Source: Arthrobacter endolithicus | GTDB taxonomy: Bacteria > Actinomycetota > Actinomycetes > Actinomycetales > Micrococcaceae | Direction: 5' to 3' | Length of the DNA stretch: 64,000 nucleotides | NCBI RefSeq assembly: GCF_026627425.1 | Contig: NZ_JAPNLH010000019.1 | Location: forward strand, 1-64,000 | Shown: positions 42,044-52,765 of the stretch, piece after piece | Position numbering within the stretch: the stretch's first letter is position 1 | Layout: each line of letters begins with the position of its first letter | Notes under the pieces: model-generated | Databases searched by the model: none | Told to the model about the DNA's origin: nothing | The model's input: only the letters and a program-made list of their open reading frames with translations | Made by a program: the position numbers and the translations under genes

Positions 42044-42766
42044 TTAGGGCATGACGTCGCCGGAGTTTGGTCCCAGTGTCTGCCCGAGGTAGAGGTTGCC
42101 GCCCGGGTCGCTGGCCAGCAGCAGCGCAGTGGGGGCCACCTCGGAGGATTGTCCGAACCGGCCTAGTGGCAGTTCGGCGCGTTTGGCAGCCTTCCAGCCT
42201 TCGGAGATGCCCTCGACGAGCGGTGTCTCAATAGGTCCGGGAGCAATGGCGTTGACCAGGACATTGTCAGCCGCGAGTTCGAGTGCGAGGGACTTGGTCA
42301 GTGCAATGACCCCGGCCTTGGCTGCGCTGTAGTGGCTGAGCCCGACTCCGCCCTTGAGCGCCAATTGCGAGGCAATGTTAATGATGCGGCCCCATTGTTG
42401 CTCGCGCATCTGTGGCACGACTTCGCGGCAGCACAAAAAAACGCCGCTTAGGTCGATACTGAGCGTCTCGTTCCACTGCGCCAGCGTCATGTCTGCCAGC
42501 GGCGATTCGGTAAGCAGACCGGCGCTGTTGACCAGCACCTGGATCGGGCCCAGTTGCTGGCGGGCGATCGCGAATGCGCTGCGAACGCTCCCTTCGTCTG
42601 CGACATCCACCGAAATCACACCGGGTCCGGCGGCCCGGTCCAGGACAGCCACCCGGTCGCCATTGGCTCGGAACGCTTCCGCGATTGCCCGCCCTATGCC
42701 GCTCGCTCCCCCGGTAACGACGACCGAGCGGCCCTCCTCGAACGAGACGGATGTTGGTTCTGCCAT
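42044..42766 (-). CDS. SDR family oxidoreductase
   Basis: A 240-residue NAD(P)-dependent enzyme with VVTGGASGIGRAIAEAFR (TGxxxGIG), an Asp after strand 2 (AVLDRAAG, suggesting NAD), NSAGLL, the Ser in NIASQLALKGG, and HYSAAKAGVIALT (YxxxK). The ATG at 42766 has GGGGAAG before it; six more codons upstream are open but unlikely. It lies 14 bases behind the second SDR (42781-43545), in the leftward operon. Probably oxidises or reduces an intermediate of the imported compound. Confidence 0.9.
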   Translation of the reverse strand: MAEPTSVSFEEGRSVVVTGGASGIGRAIAEAFRANGDRVAVLDRAAGPGVISVDVADEGSVRSAFAIARQQLGPIQVLVNSAGLLTESPLADMTLAQWNETLSIDLSGVFLCCREVVPQMREQQWGRIINIASQLALKGGVGLSHYSAAKAGVIALTKSLALELAADNVLVNAIAPGPIETPLVEGISEGWKAAKRAELPLGRFGQSSEVAPTALLLASDPGGNLYLGQTLGPNSGDVMP

Positions 42767-42780
42767 TTCTTCCCCTGCCC

Positions 42781-43545
42781 TCACGCCCGCATTTTGACGG
42801 TAAGCCCGCCGTCGACGACCAGTGCCTGCCCGGTCAAATAGCCGGCATCGGCGGAGGTGAGGAATCCGATCACCGAGGCCACTTCCTCCGGTCGACCGAC
42901 TCTTCCCCAGGGGATGTCTTTCCCTGCCTGTTTAAGCCCTTCGGGTCCCAGTGAGTTAACCGGGTCGAGTGACTGGGGTGTTTCGATCAGGCCGGGGATG
43001 ACGGCGTTGACCCGGATGTGGCGCGGGCCGAGTTCGACGGCGACGCTGCGGACCAGGCCGAGCACGCCAGCCTTAGCGGCGGCGTAGTGGGCGTGTTCTT
43101 CCCAGCCGTAGACCCCGCCGGCAATGGATGAGATGGCGACCATTGCCGCGCCCTCCCCCATGTGCCGGGCCCCGGCGCGGAGCGTTCGCAGCACTCCGGT
43201 CAGGTCAACGTCAAGCATGTCTGTCCAGCGCTCGTCAGACAGGTCCGCCAATGCCGCATTGCGAAGAATCCCGGCATTCGCAACCGCGAAGTCCAGCCGG
43301 CCGAATTCATCGATGGCGCGCTGGGCGAAAGCGTCGACCGAAGGTGTGTTACGGACGTCGACCTCGTGGATCACTGCCTGGCCGCCCGCTTCCCTGACCA
43401 ACCGGAGAGTTTCCTCCGGGTCGTGCGGATCACCGGAAAAGGTGCCGATAACAGTGCATATGTTTCGCTGCGCGTAGTGCACAGCCGATGCCCGGCCGAT
43501 ACCGCTGGCTGCACCGGTGACGATGGCGACTTTGGGCTCACTCAT
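42781..43545 (-). CDS. SDR family oxidoreductase
   Basis: A 254-residue classical [23 protein letters not shown] (TGxxxGIG), [18 protein letters not shown], the Ser in [26 protein letters not shown] (YxxxK) and the C-terminal [15 protein letters not shown] different sequence from its neighbour at 42044, so two distinct steps are likely. Its start overlaps the MFS stop by eight bases. Substrate unknown; by context a hydroxy acid or amide from the imported compound. Confidence 0.9.
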
Positions 43546-44926
43546 GGGGGTGGTCCTCCAGAACTGCCTCGACCGGGGGCTTCGCGGCGAACATCAGGAT
43601 GCCAGAAACCAAGGTTCCAAGGGCGCCGACCCAAAGTGCTGCGGTTCCGGTGCCCGAACCGGCGGCAAGGCCAGTGAACAGGGCTCCGCCGATGATAGTC
43701 CCCGGTTGGCTCATCGCCCCGATGAAGGCGGTGCCCGTGGCGCGGCAGCTGACCGGGTAGCACTCGGCCATGAAGTACTGGATCGCAGCGTACGGGCCGA
43801 CGAGGAAGAACAGTCCGGCACCATACGTGAGGATAATCATGAAGGGGCTGGTGGCGATGGGGCTGAGCATAACCGCAAAGCAGATTCCGGAGATGATCCA
43901 GCCTCCGATGATCGTGCGCTTGCGCCCGATCTTGTCGCCGATCCAGCCGTGAAAGACGTACCCGAAGTAGGCGAGCAGGTTGATGATGATCAGCATCCAG
44001 AAGGCATCGGAGAGCTGCACGCCCTTGGCGTTCTTCAGCACTGAGCTACCCAGGACACTGAAGATTGTGATGCCAAAGAAGTTGATGATCCACGCGAGCG
44101 AGAACACGATCGTGTTCCTGCGCAGGTGCGGTTCCCAGATGCGCTTGAGCGGGGCCGCTGAGGAGTGTTCTACCCCGTAGGAGCGGGCCAAGGCGTGGGC
44201 GTCATCCGGGTTTCCGTGTTTTTCCAGTTCGGTAAGTTTGCGGTGTAGCTCGAACTGGGGCGTTTCCTTCAATTTCCGGGAAATCACCCAGACTATGATC
44301 GCTGCCGGGATGGTGGCCATCAGGTAGAGGGCACGCCAGCCCAGGGAGGGCAGGAAAGCCAGTGCCAAGGCGCTTGCGAGCAGGAAGCCCAGCGGCCAGC
44401 CGCCCTGGATAAAGGAGTAGTGGAATCCGGGACGCTTGCGCTTATCGGCGACCTCGGTAACCTGGTAGACCTCATTCATGTAGGTCGCGTTGACTGCCTG
44501 TTCCGAGAAACCCAGTCCACCGAAGGAACGGATCAGCACGAGCAGTCCGTTGCTGAGGAAAGGAATACCGGTAGGGATGGCTGCCGTGAGCCCGGAGATG
44601 ACGGCGGTGCCTCCGATCGTGACCATCATGCCCTTGCGCCGTCCAAGCCGGTCAATGACGGGGCCGATGGCGAAGCAGACCACGGCGGTACCGACGGCAA
44701 TCCATGTGTTGATCGCGTACGCTTCCGGCGCCGTCCAGCCAAATTCCTGCTGCATGGCAGGCAAGAGGGTACCAAAGAGTCCGTAGTCGAAGACGGCGAC
44801 GGTCCAGGCCAGCAGGGCAAGGGTGGTGGCGATGGTGGTGTGTCTTTTGGAGAAGATGGGGAAGCGGCGCTTCTCATCCGCCCTTGGCGGGGTCAGGTCG
44901 ACCCCTGCCTGATTGATGGTGCTCAC
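43538..44926 (-). CDS. MFS transporter, sugar/organic acid-type (AAHS/SHS-like)
   Basis: A 462-residue carrier with about 12 spans. Motif A reads [15 protein letters not shown], and the PESR-like loop after TM6 is present. The frame [18 protein letters not shown] and [23 protein letters not shown]-like helices match organic-acid (aromatic or dicarboxylate) MFS carriers. The start is GTG, overlapping the upstream deacetylase-fold gene by four bases (GTGA), which indicates tight coupling. It probably imports the substrate of the cyclic-amide enzymes next to it. Confidence 0.85.
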
Positions 44927-45813
44927 TTGGTGGTTTCCTTTCGGGGGCTGCGGGAGAGGAAGGAATCGGCGATCTGGTCAAAGGTGAGCCAGCTGATGCC
45001 TTCGTGGCTGTTAATGTGCTCGATCAGGCGTTCCAGCATGAGCAGAACCTGCGGACGTCCCGAGACATCAGGGTGAATGGTCATGGTGAAGGTCGCCTGA
45101 TCCATTTCCCGATAGACCCAGTCGAATTGGTCCCGCCACATCTGTTCGATATCACGCGGGCTAACGAAGCCGTGCGAATTCGGGGAGGCTTTGATGAACA
45201 TCATTGGCGGCAGGTCATCGAGGTACCAGTTGGCCGGGATCTCCACCAGATCGGTCTCCTCACCGCGGACCAGCGGCTCCATCCACGTCTCGGCGGCCTT
45301 CGTGTAGTCGATCTTCTTCCAGCTATCACCCACCCGCACGTAATAGGGCTCGAAGTCACGATGCATGAGGGAGTGGTCGTATTTGATGCCGCGCTCGAGC
45401 AGGATCTCGTTGGTCACGGGGGAGAATTCCCACCAGGGTGCCACATACCCCGTTGGCCGGCGCCCTGAGGCCTTTTCGATCAATTCGATCGAGCGGTCGA
45501 GGATCGCGGTCTCCTGCTCCCTGGTCATCGCAATGGGATTTTCGTGCGAGTAGCCGTGGACTCCGATTTCGTGTCCTTGGTCCACGATCATTTTGACCAG
45601 CTCAGGGAAGGTTTCGAGGGAATGACCAGGGACGAACCAGGTGGAGGGAAGGGAGTACTTCTCGAACATACGGATAAGGCGAGGGCCGCCGACTTCTCCG
45701 CTGAATAAGCCGCGTGAGATGTCACACGGTGAGTCCTCGCCCCCATAGGACCCGAGCATTCCGGCAACTGCGTCCACGTCTACACCGAACGCTACTTGGA
45801 TATCCTTGGTCAT
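44923..45813 (-). CDS. CE4/polysaccharide-deacetylase-fold hydrolase, PuuE (allantoinase)/cyclic imide hydrolase-like
   Basis: A 296-residue metal hydrolase of the NodB/CE4 fold. The Asp pair is near the start (VAFGVDVDA, Asp12/Asp14), the metal histidines are in [13 protein letters not shown] (His86, His90), and a late histidine is in [12 protein letters not shown]. The full length and [13 protein letters not shown] block match cytoplasmic PuuE allantoinase and bacterial cyclic imide hydrolases rather than secreted chitin deacetylases; there is no signal peptide. Such enzymes open a cyclic amide or imide ring. Its start lies 53 bases after asparaginase, and the MFS gene overlaps its end by four bases. 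Substrate unproven. Confidence 0.8.
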
Positions 45814-45866: not shown

Positions 45867-46880
45867 TCATGGGAGCGCGCCGCGGCGGGCGAAGACTTCT
45901 GTGATGCGGGACATAGGGGTCCCGAGTCTGAGCAGGAGACTAAGTAGGATCAGTGACTGGGACGGCCTGAGCAGCCCGGAGGGTATGGCCCCGGCCGCTC
46001 TAAGGTCCTCCCCGCCGCCGTCGCCGTAGCGTGGGACCACGGCGCCGGCATCCACCCTGGTGCTCGTCACCACCACTACGCCGGACGACGTGGCCTGGGC
46101 GATCCCCCTGCAAAGTTCATGGTTCGCATTGCCGATCCCGGTGCCTTGGAGCACAATTCCCGCGGCCCCGGCTTGGAGGGCCGCCCGTAGAAGTGTGGAG
46201 TCCGCGCCCGGATAGACAGCGATGAGGTCCACCCGCGGCGAACCTGCTGCCGTCCCAGGTGCAGGCAGAGGTTCAATTCGGGCCGGCGCATGCCCCATTC
46301 GGACTTCTCCTGCGGCGGATACGGATCCTGCTGGTCCGAAGTCCGGATTGGCGAAGGCACGCAGCTGCGTTGTGTGGCACTTACGTACTCCCGTTACAGG
46401 GAAGATAGTTCCGGCAAAAACTACGAGTACACCCCTGTCCCTCGCCAAGGGGGACGCGGCGACGGCGATAGCCTGGGAGAGGTTATCCGGACCGTCCGGG
46501 ACCGGGGAATCGGCGGCCTGCTGTGCTCCGGTGAACACAACCGGGCGCGGATCATCATGCAGGAGGTTAACAAGATAAGCTGTCTCCTCCATGGTGTCCG
46601 TGCCGTGTGTGACCACCACCCCCAATACCTCAGGGGTTGCCAGAGCCTCTTGTATCCGCATGCTGATGGCGGCCATGTCATCGACGGTCAGCAAATAGGA
46701 ACCCTTCCGGAAGACATCGACAACACGGACCGGATGGGAGGGCCGCACGGCCATGCTGGCGAACACCTCCTCGCCCGAGTCCGACGCCACTGCTCCCCCG
46801 GTCCCGGATGCGCGGGAGGATATTGTCCCCCCCGTGGCAAGGAGCACCACATGCGGCCCCGAAATGTTGTTGACAGTCAT
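45867..46880 (-). CDS. Asparaginase-family amidohydrolase
   Basis: A 337-residue N-terminal nucleophile-type L-asparaginase fold. The two catalytic threonines are in LLATGGTISS (Thr19) and VTHGTDTMEETA (Thr94 with Asp95); the Lys position is in RKCHTTQLRAF. The usual asparaginase loop GAMRPAD is GAQQAAD, so Arg is lost and substrate preference may differ. The C-terminus (about 300-337) is typical. The ATG at 46880 has GGAG nine bases before it. It is the first gene of the leftward operon, 29 bp from a palindromic operator. Members hydrolyse asparagine, glutamine or other open amides. Confidence 0.85.
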   Translation of the reverse strand: MTVNNISGPHVVLLATGGTISSRASGTGGAVASDSGEEVFASMAVRPSHPVRVVDVFRKGSYLLTVDDMAAISMRIQEALATPEVLGVVVTHGTDTMEETAYLVNLLHDDPRPVVFTGAQQAADSPVPDGPDNLSQAIAVAASPLARDRGVLVVFAGTIFPVTGVRKCHTTQLRAFANPDFGPAGSVSAAGEVRMGHAPARIEPLPAPGTAAGSPRVDLIAVYPGADSTLLRAALQAGAAGIVLQGTGIGNANHELCRGIAQATSSGVVVVTSTRVDAGAVVPRYGDGGGEDLRAAGAIPSGLLRPSQSLILLSLLLRLGTPMSRITEVFARRGALP

Positions 46881-47057: not shown

Positions 47058-47154
47058 ATGTGAGCTGCGGCACGTCAAGAGTCCCGGAGCGGGCCTCTAA
47101 GACAGCCGGCAGATCTTATGGTTGCGCTTTTCGAAATCAGACTGGGGGAACGAA

Positions 47155-48210
47155 TTGAACGACAGCACGGCAGGGGGCCGGACGGTCACACTGAAGGATC
47201 TTGCGAATGAGCTCGGCATTCACCCATCGACCGTGTCCAGGATCCTTCACTCCGGCACCGAAGTGGCGCGGGGAGCCGCGTCCGTGGCGACGGCCAAACG
47301 AGTTCGTGACCTGGCGCACAAGCTCGGCTACTCCCCCGATCCGCAGGCCACTAGTCTGCGGACCCGGCGCACCCACCTTCTGGGAGTAATAGTGCCCAGG
47401 CTTTCGGACCTCGTTCTGGCCATCATGTACGAGGGCATTGAAGAGGGTGCCGCCGGGCTGGGCTACTCCACTTTTGTCATGAACTCCCGCGACAACCCGG
47501 TGGAACAACGACGGAAAACGGACACGATGCTGGCTCGCCGGGTGGACGGGCTGATCATCGGCGATGCGCATCTGGACAACGTCCTGCTGCAGGAACTACG
47601 CACCCGCAAGGTTCCATTTGTCCTCATGAACCGCCGCGTCCCCGGCCACCCGTCGGCCACCTGTGACGACGTGCTCGGAGGCCAGCTTGCGGCCGACCAC
47701 CTGTGGAGCCGCGGGCATCGGAACGTCGCCGTGATCGCCGGCGAGCCCTATGCCAGCACCGCCGTAGACCGGACGGCCGGCTTCGTTGATCAATGGAAGT
47801 CCTTTGGCGGTGCAATCTCACAGCAAGCCGTAGTGTGGTCGCGGTTCGATACCGCCGGAGGACGGGAAGCTGCTGAAAACATCCTTAACGCATGCAATCC
47901 TCGTCCCACTGCCCTCTTCGCCGTCAATGACTTCGCAGCGATCGGAGCCATGGGAGCATTGCGTTCCCACGGCCTAACGGTCGGGCGCGACATGGCCGTC
48001 GTCGGCTTTAACGACACCTCCTTGGCCGCGGAGCTGCCCATCCCTCTGTCGTCAGTGCGCTCGCCTATGCTCGATATCGGGCGAACCGCAGTGCAGCTCC
48101 TGAAACAGGTTCTTGACGGGGAACGCGTCGAACCCATCAGGTTGAAACCCACTCTTTGTGTCCGCGAAAGCAGCGCCCGAGCAATCAGCGCGACACTTTT
48201 GCGGCAATGA
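47155..48210 (+). CDS. LacI-family transcriptional regulator
   Basis: A 351-residue regulator. The N-terminal HTH is VTLKDLANELGIHPSTVSRI with the hinge TKRVRDLAHKLGYSPD and the DNA-binding linker PQATSLRTRRT. The periplasmic-binding-like sensor domain has LGVIVPRLSD, VDGLIIGDA, CDDVLGGQLAADHLW, RNVAVIAGEPY, FAVNDFAAIGAMGALRSHGL and VVGFNDTSLAAELPIPLSSVRSP. The TTG at 47155 is chosen because GGGGGA precedes it; the frame is open further upstream to 47122. It is flanked by two perfect palindromes and sits between the two opposite operons. The effector is probably a substrate or product of the neighbouring pathway. Confidence 0.9.
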   Translation: MNDSTAGGRTVTLKDLANELGIHPSTVSRILHSGTEVARGAASVATAKRVRDLAHKLGYSPDPQATSLRTRRTHLLGVIVPRLSDLVLAIMYEGIEEGAAGLGYSTFVMNSRDNPVEQRRKTDTMLARRVDGLIIGDAHLDNVLLQELRTRKVPFVLMNRRVPGHPSATCDDVLGGQLAADHLWSRGHRNVAVIAGEPYASTAVDRTAGFVDQWKSFGGAISQQAVVWSRFDTAGGREAAENILNACNPRPTALFAVNDFAAIGAMGALRSHGLTVGRDMAVVGFNDTSLAAELPIPLSSVRSPMLDIGRTAVQLLKQVLDGERVEPIRLKPTLCVRESSARAISATLLRQ

Positions 48211-48511
48211 CCAAAGCCCCGGAGCCTCCCCGAGCGATGCAGCAGGCGTGCCAGTTCCCAGCCTCGCCTCAGCTCCTCATACCGCTCTGAGGCGATGACC
48301 TGCTCAACGTGCCTCATGACCAACGCAAAGGGAACTTCCGGCGGCAGTTCCAGCAGCGGCAGGCCATGCTCCGCGCCGGCCCGAAACGGGCGCGGAAGCC
48401 TCCTGGAACACGGGATTAACCGCCGATTAGTGCAATAACGATAATCCAGCCCACCAGATTCAGCGGCCTGCACAATTCCCGCAAGGCCAGTTGTTGAGTA
48501 ACGTTGCCTCC
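48211..48511. other. Gap between regulator and pxpA, with an unassigned minus-strand reading
   Basis: The minus strand carries a coding-looking stretch (HGLPLLELPPEVPFALVMRH, EQVIASERYEELRRGWELAR) that runs into the 3' end of the regulator gene in an open frame. I cannot name a family and see no ribosome site, so I treat it as a possible relic. A second operator matching CCAATCGATTGG is not present here. Confidence 0.35.
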
Positions 48512-49261
48512 ATGCAAGCCACTGTGACCACCGACACTCACTCCCACGTGACGTTGAACTCCGATTTGGGCGAAGGGCTGGGCATTCACGAGTTCGGCAA
48601 TGACGAGGAACTCATGCGCATCATAGACGTCGCCAACGTTGCCTGCGGATATCACTCCGGTGATCCCGACGTCATGAACCGGACCGTTGCCCTCGCGGCA
48701 TCGCACGGTGTGGCGGTCGGAGCCCATCCCGGCCTTCCGGATGTGGTGGGCTTCGGCCGCCGTCGAATGGTGCTCAGCCCAGAAGAAGTCGGGTCAATCA
48801 TTCTCTACCAGACCGGAGCGCTCGCTGCCTTCCTCAAGAAGCACGGGCTGGAACTTAACCACATTAAGCCGCACGGCGCTCTCTACGGCATGCTCGCTGC
48901 CGACGAGGAACTGATGCAGGCGGCCGCCTCAACGGCATTGCAGTTCGGTGTCCCCTTCTACGGTCTGGCCGGCACTGCGCACGAAATCGTCTGCCGGGCC
49001 ATGGGCGTGGACTTTGTGCCCGAGCTCTATGTTGACCTCAATTACGGCCCCACTGGCGAGCTCCTAATTCAGCGTCGTCCGGCCCCCACTGATCCGGTCG
49101 CGGCGGCCGAGCGCGTCAGCCAGGCATTGGCCGGAGAGCGTGTCCTCGCCGTTGACGGCACTAAGCTGGACATCCCCTTCCAGAGCGTCTGCGTCCACTC
49201 CGACGCACCCAATTCGACCGCCGTGGCCTCCGCCGTGCGCGCCGTCCTCGGTCCACGTTGA
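48512..49261 (+). CDS. pxpA: LamB/YcsF family protein, 5-oxoprolinase subunit A
   Basis: A 249-residue protein of the LamB/YcsF family: NSDLGEGLGIHEFGNDEEL, NVACGYHSGDPDVM, GVAVGAHPGLPD, IKPHGALYGM and FVPELYVDLNYGPTGEL. PxpA works with PxpB and PxpC in ATP-dependent opening of 5-oxoproline; the family takes its name from a fungal lactam-utilisation gene. The ATG at 48512 lacks a strong ribosome site; an alternative start is TTG at 48491. First gene of the five-gene unit whose spacing is 31 bp, 2 bp and then overlaps. An intact PxpA supports a lactam or cyclic amide as substrate. Confidence 0.88.
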   Translation: MQATVTTDTHSHVTLNSDLGEGLGIHEFGNDEELMRIIDVANVACGYHSGDPDVMNRTVALAASHGVAVGAHPGLPDVVGFGRRRMVLSPEEVGSIILYQTGALAAFLKKHGLELNHIKPHGALYGMLAADEELMQAAASTALQFGVPFYGLAGTAHEIVCRAMGVDFVPELYVDLNYGPTGELLIQRRPAPTDPVAAAERVSQALAGERVLAVDGTKLDIPFQSVCVHSDAPNSTAVASAVRAVLGPR

Positions 49262-49292
49262 TCTAAACTCCTTCGAGAAAGCGAGAATCCAC

Positions 49293-49532
49293 ATGGCAAT
49301 CATCGTCTCCCCACTGCCGGGAATTTTTTACCGCAAGCCCGGTCCGGGCAAGCCTCCGTTCGCCAACGAAGGGGACACCATCGTGATTGGACAGACGGTG
49401 GGCATTGTCGAAATCATGAAGCAGTTCACTGAAATCCAGTCTGACGTCGCCGGCGTCCTCCAGTCCTTCGAGGTCGATGACGGCGCAATGGTCAACCCGG
49501 GCGATGCAATCATTGTCATCCATGAAGGATAG
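49293..49532 (+). CDS. Free-standing biotin carboxyl carrier protein
   Basis: A 79-residue biotinyl domain with the lysine in the biotin motif VEIMKQF (Lys43) and the preceding and following strand pattern GDTIVIGQTVGIVE and DGAMVNPGDAIIVI. It lacks the Ala/Pro linker and N-terminal region of a usual AccB (about 150 residues). GCGAGAA precedes the ATG. It lies between pxpA and biotin carboxylase. In this operon no acetyl-CoA carboxyltransferase genes are present, so this carrier probably serves the PxpBC-type carboxyltransferase. It could be biotinylated by the host's BirA. Confidence 0.9.
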   Translation: MAIIVSPLPGIFYRKPGPGKPPFANEGDTIVIGQTVGIVEIMKQFTEIQSDVAGVLQSFEVDDGAMVNPGDAIIVIHEG

Positions 49533-49534
49533 AT

Positions 49535-50887
49535 ATGAAGAAACTGCTGATCGCAAATCGCGGCGAGATTGCCGTGCGGATTGCCCGCACTGCCCGCCAA
49601 ATGTGTATTGAAACAGTCCTCGTGGCTAGCGAACCCGACGCTGATTCCCTCGCTGCACGTTCCTGCGACCATTTTGTCTTGATCGGTCCGGCTCCCGCGA
49701 CTGCTAGCTACCTGAACCAGGACGCGATTCTCGCCGCAGCTCTGGAGACCGGTTGCGAGGCAGTCCACCCGGGCTATGGTTTCCTCTCCGAGAACGCCGC
49801 GTTCGCCCGCAAGGTAGCTCAATCGGGCCTGATCTGGGTCGGTCCGGACGCCGCCGCCATAGAAATGATGGGCAACAAGTCCATGGCAAGGGAATCGGCC
49901 CGTAAGGCCGGCGTCCCTGTTCTCCCCGGATCGGACGGCCCGCTGGATCCGGCCGCGGACGCCGTCGAAGTTGGCCGCGGAATCGGATACCCGCTCGTGG
50001 TTAAGGCATCCGCAGGCGGCGGCGGCCGAGGAATCCGCTTCGTCGACCACGAAGACGAGCTTCTTGAAACAATCGATATGGCGCGTGGCGAAGCGGCTTC
50101 CGTCTTCGGTGATCCCACCGTCTATCTGGAGCGCTTCGTCCAACATGCACGGCACGTAGAGGTGCAGATTCTCGGCGACGGAACCAGCTTTATCCACCTC
50201 GGAGACCGTGACTGCTCCCTGCAGAGACGCTCACAGAAAGTTATCGAAGAAGCACCGGCACCGGACCTTCCCGACGCGGTGCGCCGAATCATCCGGGAGT
50301 CCTCCGTGGAACTTGCCCGCGGATGCGGTTACAGCGGGGCCGGAACCGTCGAATTTCTGTATGACCCCAAGAACCAGGAAGCAGCATTTATCGAAATGAA
50401 CACACGTATCCAGGTCGAGCACCCAATCACCGAGGCAATCACCGGCATCGATCTGGTCCGCGAACAACTGCAGATTGCCTCCACCGGCACCATGTCCTTA
50501 AGGCAGGACGACATCCGTCTCGTCGGCCACGCTATAGAATGCCGCATCAACGCCGAAGACCCGGACCACAACTTCTTCCCCAGCCCTGGCCTGATCAAGG
50601 ACTTGCACTGGCCCACCGGTCCAGGCATTCGAGTCGACGCGGGAGTGGAGCGAGGGTCGGTGGTCAGCCCGTATTATGACTCGCTGCTTGCCAAACTGAT
50701 CCTCTACGCGGATACCCGTGAAGCCGCCATAAAGGAAATGCTCAATGCGCTGGACCAGACGCGGATCGAAGGGGTCAAAACCACTATCGGGCTTCACAAA
50801 AAGCTGTTGGCGCGCCCCGAATTCGCAGCTGTCACCCACCACTCAAAGTTCATAGAAACAACGGCCGACCTAATGGAGGCGCAATGA
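49535..50887 (+). CDS. Biotin carboxylase subunit
   Basis: A 450-residue ATP-grasp enzyme that carboxylates biotin on the carrier using bicarbonate and ATP. Motifs: LLIANRGEIAVRIARTARQM, YGFLSENAAFARKV, the glycine loop VVKASAGGGGRGIRFV, the catalytic HLGDRDCSLQRRSQKVIEEA, FIEMNTRIQVEHPITE and the C-terminal SPYYDSLLAKLI. The full family length is present. It starts two bases after the carrier stop, and its own stop overlaps pxpB by four bases. No AccA/AccD is adjacent, so its acyl acceptor is not acetyl-CoA by context. Confidence 0.93.
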   Translation: MKKLLIANRGEIAVRIARTARQMCIETVLVASEPDADSLAARSCDHFVLIGPAPATASYLNQDAILAAALETGCEAVHPGYGFLSENAAFARKVAQSGLIWVGPDAAAIEMMGNKSMARESARKAGVPVLPGSDGPLDPAADAVEVGRGIGYPLVVKASAGGGGRGIRFVDHEDELLETIDMARGEAASVFGDPTVYLERFVQHARHVEVQILGDGTSFIHLGDRDCSLQRRSQKVIEEAPAPDLPDAVRRIIRESSVELARGCGYSGAGTVEFLYDPKNQEAAFIEMNTRIQVEHPITEAITGIDLVREQLQIASTGTMSLRQDDIRLVGHAIECRINAEDPDHNFFPSPGLIKDLHWPTGPGIRVDAGVERGSVVSPYYDSLLAKLILYADTREAAIKEMLNALDQTRIEGVKTTIGLHKKLLARPEFAAVTHHSKFIETTADLMEAQ

Positions 50888-51789
50888 GCGGCCCGGAATT
50901 GGCCCTGCAGGAGGCGCGTTACACATGGGGAGCAGATGAATTCCTCTTCGTCGAGGTTTCAGAGGCCATGAGCCTGGCCGCCAACTTCAAGGTTATGTCA
51001 CTCGCCGCCAGGCTCTCGGACTCCAACCTCCCCGGGATTGTGGACATCTGTCCTGCCAATGCCTCGCTTCTGGTGCGGTTCGATCCCGACGTCCTCCCAC
51101 CGCACACCCTTGAAAAGACCGTCCGTGCGATCGAACGCGACCTGACCCATCATCAGGAGCAGACGCTCCAAACCCGGATCATTGAGGTCCCAGTCTGGTA
51201 CGGCGATCCCTTCACCGCTGAGGTGGAGAAGCGCTTTCGTGACGGATTCCATCAGGAACCCGAAGGGACCGACGTCGAGTTTGCTGCCAAGGTCAACAAC
51301 CTCAAAGACTCCGCCGAATTTATTGAACGCCATCACAGCCAGCCCTGGCTCGTATCCATGGTTGGCTTCGTCGCCGGGCTACCCTTCCTCTTTCAACTGG
51401 TCGAGCGGGAAAAACAGCTCCAAGTCCCCAAGTACCTGAGCCCACGTACCGATACGCCCAAACTGACGGTGGGCCACGGCGGCTGCTTTGGTTGCATCTA
51501 CTCGGTGCGCGGCGCAGGCGGGTACCAAATGTTCGGCGTGGCTGCCGCACCGATCTTTGATCCGGCCCAGGCCCTGGAAGACTTCAAAGACTTCATGGTT
51601 TTCTTTCGGCCGGGGGATATCGTCAAATTCAGCCCGGTTACAGAAACCGACTACAACAGCATCCAGAGACAGATTTCTGCCGGAACGTTCCGGTACCGCC
51701 AAAGACCCGTGACCTTTGACCTTTCCAAGGCTCTGGCAAACCCCGAACGGTACAACCGGGAACTCTTGGAGGCCCTCAATGGCATTTAG
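50884..51789 (+). CDS. pxpB: 5-oxoprolinase subunit B/allophanate hydrolase subunit 1-like (KipI family)
   Basis: A 301-residue protein of the AHS1/KipI family, with the core ADEFLFVEVSEAMSLAANFK, PANASLLVRFDP, EVPVWYG, VGFVAGLPFLFQL, LPKYLSPRTDTPKLTVG-like positions and SVRGAGGYQMFGVAAAPIFD. It is about 60 residues longer than ordinary PxpB (about 240), the extra lying around residues 105-155 and at the C-terminus. The homologous half is part of the carboxyltransferase domain in urea carboxylase. Overlaps accC-like gene by four bases and pxpC by eleven. Confidence 0.87.
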   Translation: MSGPELALQEARYTWGADEFLFVEVSEAMSLAANFKVMSLAARLSDSNLPGIVDICPANASLLVRFDPDVLPPHTLEKTVRAIERDLTHHQEQTLQTRIIEVPVWYGDPFTAEVEKRFRDGFHQEPEGTDVEFAAKVNNLKDSAEFIERHHSQPWLVSMVGFVAGLPFLFQLVEREKQLQVPKYLSPRTDTPKLTVGHGGCFGCIYSVRGAGGYQMFGVAAAPIFDPAQALEDFKDFMVFFRPGDIVKFSPVTETDYNSIQRQISAGTFRYRQRPVTFDLSKALANPERYNRELLEALNGI

Positions 51790-52765
51790 AATTAAAACAC
51801 CGGGGTTGGCAACAACAGTCCAGGACCAGGGACGCTTCGGTCACTACAACGTCGGTATCCCGCAAAGCGGTTCTATGGACCAGTACTCAGCTGAACTCGG
51901 CAACGCACTCGTGGGCAACTCGGTACAGGATGCCGTTCTCGAATGTACCTACGTCGGCCCCGCGCTGATCACCGATCACCATGTTGTCATCGCCATCACC
52001 GGAGCACCGGTGGATATCAAGGTCAACGGCATGCCACGACCGCAGTGGACCAGGCTGCGCCTTAACGCCGGCGATGAGCTCAGCTTCGGAGTCATCCAAG
52101 GCGGGACCCGCTACTACATCGCGGTCAGCGGCGGTATCGACGTTCCCGAGGTACTTGGCAGTCGATCCACCTACAGTCTCGGCGTCATTGGCGGATTTAA
52201 AGGCAGAAAGCTAGAGACCGGAGACGAAGTTGCCATCGGCGATCCGATTAACAACAGGACGCTGTCCGCCGTCGAAGCTGTCCCGGAAAACTTCAGGCCG
52301 GTATTTACTAAGGAACAGGTGGTCCGCATTGTCCTGGGCCTGTACGACCACCGTCTCTCCGTCGAAGGGCTGGACAACCTTCTCCACGGCGAGTGGACGG
52401 TGACACCCGTGGCAGACAGGATGGGATTGCGTTACTCAGGTCCAGGTGTGACGTGGAAGGACCGCGAGCAGCCCTTTGGCGCAGGGTCAGACCCATCCAA
52501 CATTGTTGATGCCGGCTACGCTGTCGGATCTATCCAAATTCCGGGCGGCACTCAGCCCATCATTCTGCACCGAGATGCTGTGTCAGGCGGCGGCTATGCC
52601 ATGGTCGCCACAGTCATAAGCGCAGACATGGATCTGGTAGCCCGAGCGGCACCGGGCACAGCCACGACTTTTAGAGCCGTCAGTCAGCACGAGGCCTTGT
52701 CAGCCCGCGAGGAACTCTCTGACCGCAAAAATGAGGCCTGGGCGGCAGTGGGTGCCACCCGGTGA
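51779..52765 (+). CDS. pxpC: 5-oxoprolinase subunit C/biotin-dependent carboxyltransferase-like (AHS2, KipA family)
   Basis: A 328-residue AHS2/KipA protein: TPGLATTVQDQGRFGHYNVG, IPQSGSMDQYSAELGNALVG, GTRYYIAVSGGIDVPEVLGS, TVTPVADRMGLRYSG, DAGYAVGSIQIPGG and QPIILHRDAVSGGGYAM. With PxpB it forms the KipIA-type unit whose fused form is the carboxyltransferase of urea carboxylase. The ATG at 51779 overlaps pxpB by eleven bases; an upstream frame to 51716 is not real. Last gene of the operon. Expected partners: PxpA for ring opening and the biotin carrier and biotin carboxylase before it. Confidence 0.88.
   Translation: MAFRIKTPGLATTVQDQGRFGHYNVGIPQSGSMDQYSAELGNALVGNSVQDAVLECTYVGPALITDHHVVIAITGAPVDIKVNGMPRPQWTRLRLNAGDELSFGVIQGGTRYYIAVSGGIDVPEVLGSRSTYSLGVIGGFKGRKLETGDEVAIGDPINNRTLSAVEAVPENFRPVFTKEQVVRIVLGLYDHRLSVEGLDNLLHGEWTVTPVADRMGLRYSGPGVTWKDREQPFGAGSDPSNIVDAGYAVGSIQIPGGTQPIILHRDAVSGGGYAMVATVISADMDLVARAAPGTATTFRAVSQHEALSAREELSDRKNEAWAAVGATR

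Follow-up and report, generated by a model that had tools for sequence, protein, structure and literature searches.

Within the window, that is, the whole 64,000-nucleotide stretch of Arthrobacter endolithicus DNA that was analysed here (contig NZ_JAPNLH010000019.1, positions 1 to 64,000), five tightly packed genes on the forward strand, spanning 48512-52765, encode in order a PxpA-like protein, a biotin carrier, a biotin carboxylase (BC), a PxpB-like protein and a PxpC-like protein. This operon may be read, with a probability that we put at roughly 0.68 and on the basis of sequence comparisons, as encoding a split biotin-dependent lactam (i.e., cyclic amide) carboxylase plus a hydrolase. Carrying that reading are three direct observations: the five genes are linked across genomes, the two carboxyltransferase halves are kin to urea carboxylase, and their residues present a mixed signature. 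The genes are these:

48512 to 49261, + strand: pxpA-like LamB/YcsF hydrolase subunit, with ATG at 48512 in an open reading frame that opens with TTG at 48491; PF03746, 276 bits.
49293 to 49532, + strand: stand-alone biotin carboxyl carrier, 79 aa; PF00364 (Biotin_lipoyl), 50 bits; NF005457, 104.1 bits (cut-off 87).
49535 to 50887, + strand: stand-alone BC, 450 aa; Biotin_carb_N 140.7, CPSase_L_D2 231.2 and Biotin_carb_C 131.9 bits.
50884 to 51789, + strand: urea-carboxylase-type carboxyltransferase half, PxpB-like (subdomains C/D); CT_C_D, 143.3 bits.
51779 to 52765, + strand: PxpC-like carboxyltransferase half (subdomains A/B); CT_A_B, 280.1 bits.

Gaps of 31 and 2 bases (pxpA/carrier and carrier/BC), together with overlaps of 4 and 11 nucleotides (BC/pxpB and pxpB/pxpC), make a single transcript likely. 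All five gene families exceed curated Pfam cut-offs, and the five open reading frames which an initial annotation had placed on one strand are recovered both by reading-frame calls and by Pfam. That annotation's statement that the operon lacks an acetyl-CoA carboxyltransferase stands as well, the classical carboxyltransferase family PF01039 (Carboxyl_trans) being absent from the operon and found in the genome only on contigs C4 and C66. The best PDB relatives of PxpA are 1v6t and 2dfa.

The carrier displays the motif VEIMKQF, with its biotinyl lysine codon at 49419-49421, and the biotinyl MK is present in all 103 of the carriers compared. The BC is identical to Escherichia coli AccC at 16 of 17 compared positions, with position 236 differing. 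AccC residues K116, K159, H209, K238, E276, E288, N290, R292 and R338, which we take to be catalytic or ligand-binding, are all nine identical in the window's BC. What is generally asked of a biotin-dependent carboxylase, i.e., a BC active site along with a biotinyl lysine, is present.

The names pxpB and pxpC, as used by the initial annotation, hold for family but are approximate in that neither protein reaches its equivalog, with PxpB nearer to urea carboxylase model TIGR02712 and PxpC nearer to TIGR00724. That is, among NCBIfam models PxpB scores 120.9 bits with TIGR02712 and 91.1 with PxpB model TIGR00370 (below the cut-off, 145.55), and PxpC scores 245.7 with TIGR00724, the generic 5-oxoprolinase/urea-amidolyase domain, 229.7 with TIGR02712 and 177.2 with PxpC model NF045499 (below the cut-off, 500). 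PxpA exceeds the cut-off of NF003814 (249 versus 226 bits). No one polypeptide reaches the TIGR02712 cut-off of 1303.85, with pieces of that model found across four proteins at 512.6, 229.7, 120.9 and 26.3 bits. The BC falls below the AccC equivalog TIGR00514 (585.4 bits, cut-off 626.5) and the carrier below the BCCP model TIGR00531 (67.6 bits, cut-off 115.2); NF006367 (616 bits, cut-off 597) and NF005457 are exceeded, both being models named acetyl-CoA carboxylase.

Here the term ‘Arg-type’ is used for canonical PxpBC, as distinguished from the ‘Lys-type’ of the window, by the residue at the catalytic place. Trees were ‘quick’ ones, with SH-aLRT support only and with some of the nodes cited unstarred. 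In the carboxyltransferase tree, consisting of 91 concatenated PxpC+PxpB sequences and with no root inferred, the 38 window-type rows form one group (99*) which shares a side (99*) with 10 urea carboxylases (100*), apart from 43 Arg-type rows that include E. coli, the copy on contig C33 of the window's own genome (G000) and the biotin-linked Arg-type sets. The window's carboxyltransferase is found, that is, on the urea-carboxylase side of the tree, yet in its own separate group. Fungal urea carboxylase is top-ranked both in a PDB sequence search and by Foldseek, the latter placing 5i8i and 3va7 first for the PxpB model, ahead of 2phc and YbgJ. As the active-site loop of that AlphaFold model (187-203 and 207-212; mean pLDDT of the model as a whole, 79) falls below 50, the model was used for fold ranking only.

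In K. lactis urea carboxylase, Lys1605 is the likely general base, with K1605A severely inhibiting the enzyme (PMC5770610). Counting along the PDB sequence alignment places Lys1605 on K183 of the window's PxpB (codon 51430-51432), a place holding K in 38/38 window-type rows and 10/10 urea carboxylases, and R in 43/43 Arg-type rows; in a later sequence set it is K in 6/6 and R in 34/34, respectively. Described as signature residues are D1584 and N/D1330 (PMC11410670), with the Asp/Asn rule found also in PMC12186494. The D1584 place (F162 of the window's PxpB, codon 51367-51369) is F in all 38 window-type and all 43 Arg-type rows versus D in all 10 urea carboxylases, while the 1330 place (Q253 of PxpC, 52535-52537) is Q in 38/38 window-type and 42/43 Arg-type rows, with the ten urea carboxylases having D (seven) or N (three). 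N241 (52499-52501) and D244 (52508-52510) of PxpC are common to urea carboxylase, Arg-type rows having mostly E and S. With its Lys-type catalytic residue and F/Q substrate positions, the enzyme would thus unite biotin-carboxyltransferase catalysis with the pocket of a lactam enzyme. The mapping should be valid in three dimensions too, though the model's loop is poor there.

As for how such an enzyme might function, BC would, with ATP and bicarbonate, carboxylate the biotin of the 79-aa carrier, as its intact residues suggest. PxpB/PxpC would then place that carboxyl on a lactam or another cyclic amide, at its amide nitrogen (or instead oxygen), and PxpA would hydrolyse the activated ring, in the manner of allophanate hydrolase following upon urea carboxylase. 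The carbamate presumably would lose CO2, leaving an omega-amino acid.

Gene linkage was followed in GTDB genomes by scanning with a PxpB alignment, giving at least 559 relatives, and among the best 80 of these, i.e., those analysed, all five genes are on one strand in 78. The two exceptions are L098, with neither BC nor carrier within 8 kb, and L112, which is cut by its contig. Across all sources, 106 loci of the window's type, selected by similarity, have a BC near in 104 instances, a carrier in 103 and PxpA in 105. The five-gene set is found in proteobacteria, actinobacteria and haloarchaea, with two haloarchaea possessing the same five genes in shuffled order. Annotated examples are from Diaphorobacter, Ruegeria, Rhizobium, Sulfitobacter, Shinella and Methylobacterium, and further from Azospirillum, Aestuarium, Acidiphilium, Ensifer and Phyllobacterium.

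As these sets of 80 and 106 loci were chosen by similarity, two even genome samples were drawn, one of 248 genomes of the window's order and the other of 249 genomes of the phylum of a Variovorax (G537) that served as chosen centre. The first holds nine genomes with the window's type (its own included), with carrier and BC in 9/9 and a different gene order in one (L162); the second holds seven, with BC in six and carrier in five, one contig ending there. Minus the two centre genomes, BC is near 13/14 and carrier near 12/14 window-type loci, so that the co-occurrence with this PxpABC type which the initial annotation proposed looking for is indeed seen. Near the 65 Arg-type loci of the same samples there is a BC in 24 instances and a stand-alone carrier in one (Fisher, window type versus Arg type: 2e-4 for BC and 2e-11 for carrier, with relatedness ignored and with counts being of loci rather than of independent events). 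That carrier and BC are chance neighbours is rejected on the linkage counts.

Locus types in these samples were separated by score to a Lys-type model. The Arg-type set from the window's order is not random: it comprises 31 places, mostly upper rows with some skipped, two of them (G443 and G330) picked because their genomes also carry the Lys type. Of the 35 Arg-type places of the G537-phylum sample 34 were used (G625 was left out), two of the 34 being in the centre, G537. Excluded from counts was L163, whose contig is 5.3 kb long and bears a piece resembling urea carboxylase. Outside of the overall set of 112 loci are twelve loci of family f18 with 1.5-kb flanks, in which a BC was seen in ten but not in L016 or L023. 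An Arg-type hit is present also in 6/9 genomes with the window's type in the sample of the window's order; G537 has two and G539 one. G539 (Arthrobacter sp. SO3, the genome of L058) has on C1 and C90 two Lys-type PxpB copies plus the one of Arg type. In Pseudarthrobacter sp. Fe7 (L065, 6288-9880), two overlapping frames are seen for each of carrier, BC and pxpC, which is decay or sequencing errors.

The window's genome (3.96 Mb, 99.97% complete) encodes three PxpA (window, C33, C5), two CT_A_B proteins (window, C33), four BC, two classical Carboxyl_trans proteins (C4, C66) and a biotin ligase. The other three BC proteins (604, 772 and 1143 aa) each possess their own Biotin_lipoyl domain, at the end. 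A BT domain of methylcrotonyl-CoA carboxylase is present too in the 772-aa protein, and two pyruvate carboxylase domains, PYC_OADA and HMGL-like, in that of 1143 aa. The 604- and 772-aa proteins are encoded on C4 and C66, that is, on the same contigs as the two classical carboxyltransferases. As only the window's BC and carrier have no carboxyltransferase of the classical kind either in the same chain or on the same contig, PxpB/PxpC is their obvious partner. That the carrier serves only an acetyl-CoA carboxylase encoded elsewhere, which the initial annotation saw as potentially refuting its proposal, looks unlikely, the other three BCs ending in Biotin_lipoyl domains of their own. 5-oxoproline as the substrate is not supported, as contig C33 encodes a separate, canonical pxpA-pxpB-pxpC, with no BC within the 16 kb read. 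The C33 set rules out the window's set as the cell's only 5-oxoprolinase, and the window's substrate is probably not 5-oxoproline. The core of what was originally proposed, i.e., an enzyme like urea carboxylase but in pieces, combined with a LamB/YcsF hydrolase, nevertheless is supported by the tree, by the catalytic lysine and by linkage across phyla.

On contig C5 (L043:5347-7584) an amidase-signature enzyme is directly followed by the third, solo PxpA, which is of the window-type group and has no PxpBC, carrier or BC within the 14 kb read. In L161 (G459), a window-type operon includes a gene closely related to that amidase (735 bits). The window's carboxylase module might serve two hydrolases.

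A number of observations weigh against a split lactam carboxylase. L050, L098 and L217, from among the 112 loci, lack both BC and carrier nearby (in L112 and L213 the contig ends too early), and in L050 the PdxS gene (pdxS) occupies the place of carrier and BC. Other BCs are present in the genomes of L098 and L217, with the carrier-BC pair of the latter resembling AccB-AccC, and these could serve in trans. Arg-type PxpBC adjoins a BC in the 24/65 loci noted, hence nearness to BC is not unique to the window's type. The window's BC does not group with the BC domain of urea carboxylase. Gamma-aminobutyric acid (GABA) transaminase is a minority neighbour, seen in 10/106 of the similarity-selected loci (weakly so in L125 and L149) and near 0/14 sampled window-type loci (with the centre, L119, left out), such that a general GABA link fails as a rule. 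In the open-access literature, lastly, no measured enzyme activity for the operon was found.

L050 (6172-9858 of plasmid pYJN5-2 of Paenarthrobacter sp. YJN-5) reads pxpA, PdxS gene, pxpB, pxpC, and upstream are genes for a class III aminotransferase, an aldehyde dehydrogenase and a glutamine-synthetase-like protein. Among the 24 BC frames near Arg-type loci (L164-L194, L218-L251), 23 are at least 584 aa in length and one (L235) is 461 aa. A rule that biotin genes occur only with Lys-type PxpB was considered and failed, since Arg-type sets in family f26 and Lactiplantibacillus have both carrier and BC, and since a BC is near the 24/65 Arg-type loci. Those operons (L138-L141, L150) are like the window's in PxpB, PxpC, BC and a biotin/lipoyl carrier, with PxpA within reach in 4/5, but differ in their Arg-type PxpB, gene order and separate tree group, and L150 has hydro-lyase and NRAMP neighbours, unlike the window.

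Partners of the carboxyltransferase vary. In the BC tree, 25/30 window-type BCs, the window's included, form one group (support 92) that is distinct from the other BCs of G000 and from the urea-carboxylase BC, with BCs of haloarchaea, f18 and L162 placed elsewhere. BC partners thus trace to two or more parts of the tree, as if pairing had occurred repeatedly. In the PxpA tree (without L172, which is short, and L138, which has none) the window's type occupies two groups. One holds the window's PxpA and the solo C5 PxpA of the same genome. The other consists of ten rows (99*; Variovorax, Diaphorobacter, Glaciimonas, Ruegeria, Aestuarium, Cohaesibacter, Rhizobium, Azospirillum and two of f18) and is placed closer to canonical PxpA (support 89). 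It seems, then, that neither the BC nor the hydrolase with which the carboxylase module is paired is always of one kind, as if PxpA set part of the substrate range.

Adjacent to the operon in the window are the following:

47122 to 48210, + strand: LacI-family regulator, upstream of the operon; homologue in 25/106 loci.
45867 to 46880, - strand: asparaginase-family enzyme, a conserved neighbour; PF00710, 173.6 bits; in 25/106 loci.
44923 to 45813, - strand: PuuE-like polysaccharide-deacetylase-family enzyme, a conserved neighbour; PF01522, 68.6 bits; TIGR03212, 83.4 bits, under the cut-off; in 24/106 loci.
43541 to 44977, - strand: MFS transporter, a conserved neighbour given as its stop-to-stop frame; PF07690, 120.3 bits; homologous frames in 24 loci.

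By position and conservation the LacI-family protein is the probable regulator of the operon, and the MFS transporter possibly is the importer of its substrate. Beside the latter are two short-chain dehydrogenases (42047-43593, - strand), with homologous frames in 18 related loci.

Over the 106 loci, neighbours include an NCS1-type permease (27; the query was a gene annotated as allantoin permease), asparaginase (25), PuuE-like enzyme (24) and TorT-type binding protein (20), and, more rarely, hydantoinase B (12), succinate-semialdehyde dehydrogenase (SSADH; 11), GABA transaminase (10) and molybdenum hydroxylase (10). GABA transaminase exceeding the TIGR00700 cut-off adjoins the operon in L049, L122 and L143, with further phmmer matches, scoring 512-773 bits, in L056, L118, L119, L127 and L137; transaminases of the two haloarchaea and L050 are below the curated GABA cut-off. 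SSADH is near 1/14 sampled window-type loci (L216), and neither it nor GABA transaminase is near any of the 65 Arg-type loci. For the GABA-transaminase-linked subgroup, i.e., of alpha- and betaproteobacteria plus family f18 of the window's phylum, 2-pyrrolidinone would be the substrate at close to even odds. The window clusters instead with loci having the asparaginase, PuuE-like enzyme, LacI and MFS transporter, and for the window, with its PxpA in the other group from that of GABA-linked loci, the substrate would be a related cyclic amide. Possible substrates for the window are a lactam, a cyclic imide or a hydantoin-like ring.

A variant of the lactam carboxylase that is compatible with it has the window's enzyme act not on a simple lactam but on a cyclic imide, a hydantoin or a ring derived from a nucleobase, with the asparaginase and PuuE-like enzyme effecting further steps. 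The counts for NCS1-type permease, asparaginase, PuuE-like enzyme and hydantoinase B argue for this, as does the PucR regulator of L079, to which frames in 30 loci are homologous, but such neighbours are found in some loci only, their functions are predicted, and both PuuE-like enzyme and asparaginase fall under equivalog cut-offs; the variant can be held tentatively.

From a broader perspective, all PxpBC, including those of classical 5-oxoprolinase, might be biotin carboxyltransferases, with canonical sets borrowing BC and carrier from a housekeeping acyl-CoA carboxylase, and bacterial 5-oxoproline opening then would proceed via an N-carboxy lactam. There are hints of this in the BCs beside 24/65 Arg-type loci and in the grouping of those of the window's order with the BC-carrier fusion of G000 on C4 (12 rows, 100*). 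For MSMEG_0435-0436, a PxpBC-type pair of M. smegmatis, we know of no dedicated carrier. A further hint is PDB 9yx5, by whose title this pair is bound to the long-chain acyl-CoA carboxylase complex, a different carboxylase from that of the window. The generalization is unlikely, as the catalytic lysine is Arg in 43/43 Arg-type rows and as ATP hydrolysis by PxpBC has been reported (PMC8453981).

The opposite idea is that PxpABC by itself is a classical ATP-dependent lactamase, PxpBC being the ATPase, with carrier and BC travelling along as extra copies of acetyl-CoA carboxylase parts. The window's PxpA, PxpB and PxpC are the same subunits as those of the 5-oxoprolinase of E. coli (pxpBCA, L205; no biotin genes within the 7 kb shown around), and both substrate positions hold the same residues, F and Q, but that enzyme has Arg for Lys at the catalytic place, and the window's PxpB and PxpC miss the curated cut-offs. 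The central publication on PxpABC is Niehaus 2017. Opening of 5-oxoproline by PxpA/B/C in other organisms has been reported (PMC8453981; also for C. glutamicum pxpTABC), which is a point for this idea. So too are the three loci without biotin genes and the NCBI models, passed at their cut-offs, that call carrier and BC acetyl-CoA carboxylase. Mere travelling companions nonetheless are improbable given linkage that persists between phyla and with different gene orders (haloarchaea), a PxpBC that groups with biotin carboxyltransferase and has its lysine, and other BCs in G000 that bring their own carriers.

A split urea or guanidine carboxylase, with PxpA acting on carboxylated urea or guanidine, is suggested by the grouping and by the Lys, Asn and Asp in common, but is highly improbable, and rejected in the case of urea carboxylase proper, as D1584 and N/D1330 are replaced by F and Q in 38/38, as in Arg-type PxpB/PxpC, and as the annotated stretches examined list no allophanate hydrolase except PxpB/PxpC themselves, so named in some records. 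Urea/guanidine carboxylase (TIGR02712; 3va7, 5i8i) is like the window's enzyme in its BC, biotin carrier and CT_A_B plus CT_C_D carboxyltransferase, and unlike it in being neither split into four proteins nor of the same BC lineage, and in having allophanate hydrolase where the window has PxpA.

The lactam carboxylase has further counterparts. LamA of Aspergillus nidulans we take to be urea-carboxylase-like, with 2-pyrrolidinone as substrate, and LamB presumably is the namesake of LamB/YcsF; the lam genes are reportedly the subject of Katz and Hynes 1989. Under the control of AmdR, lamA and lamB act in lactam catabolism, along with omega-amino-acid genes gatA and gabA (PMC8016842), but are fungal and not a split operon. 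OplAB and CapAB likewise open lactams in an ATP- and bicarbonate-dependent manner, but are hydantoinase/oxoprolinase-related proteins, with no biotin part mentioned in the available portions of PMC11033972 and PMC8453981. Homologues of both carboxyltransferase halves that lie next to each other and are unstudied have been reported (PMC3199775). No paper assigning the operon was found in the open-access literature searched, and an earlier description is possible.

Rhizobial, marine and soil records label such genes as parts of acetyl-CoA carboxylase plus 5-oxoprolinase or allophanate hydrolase, and, if the lactam carboxylase is real, these differently labelled gene sets would be one enzyme. Unstrained lactams resist hydrolysis, and their biotin-driven activation would be a chemistry new to the literature searched. 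The finding also makes the PxpABC mechanism testable, and GABA-linked members would be direct candidates for lactam opening, of potential use for nylon-4 monomer waste.

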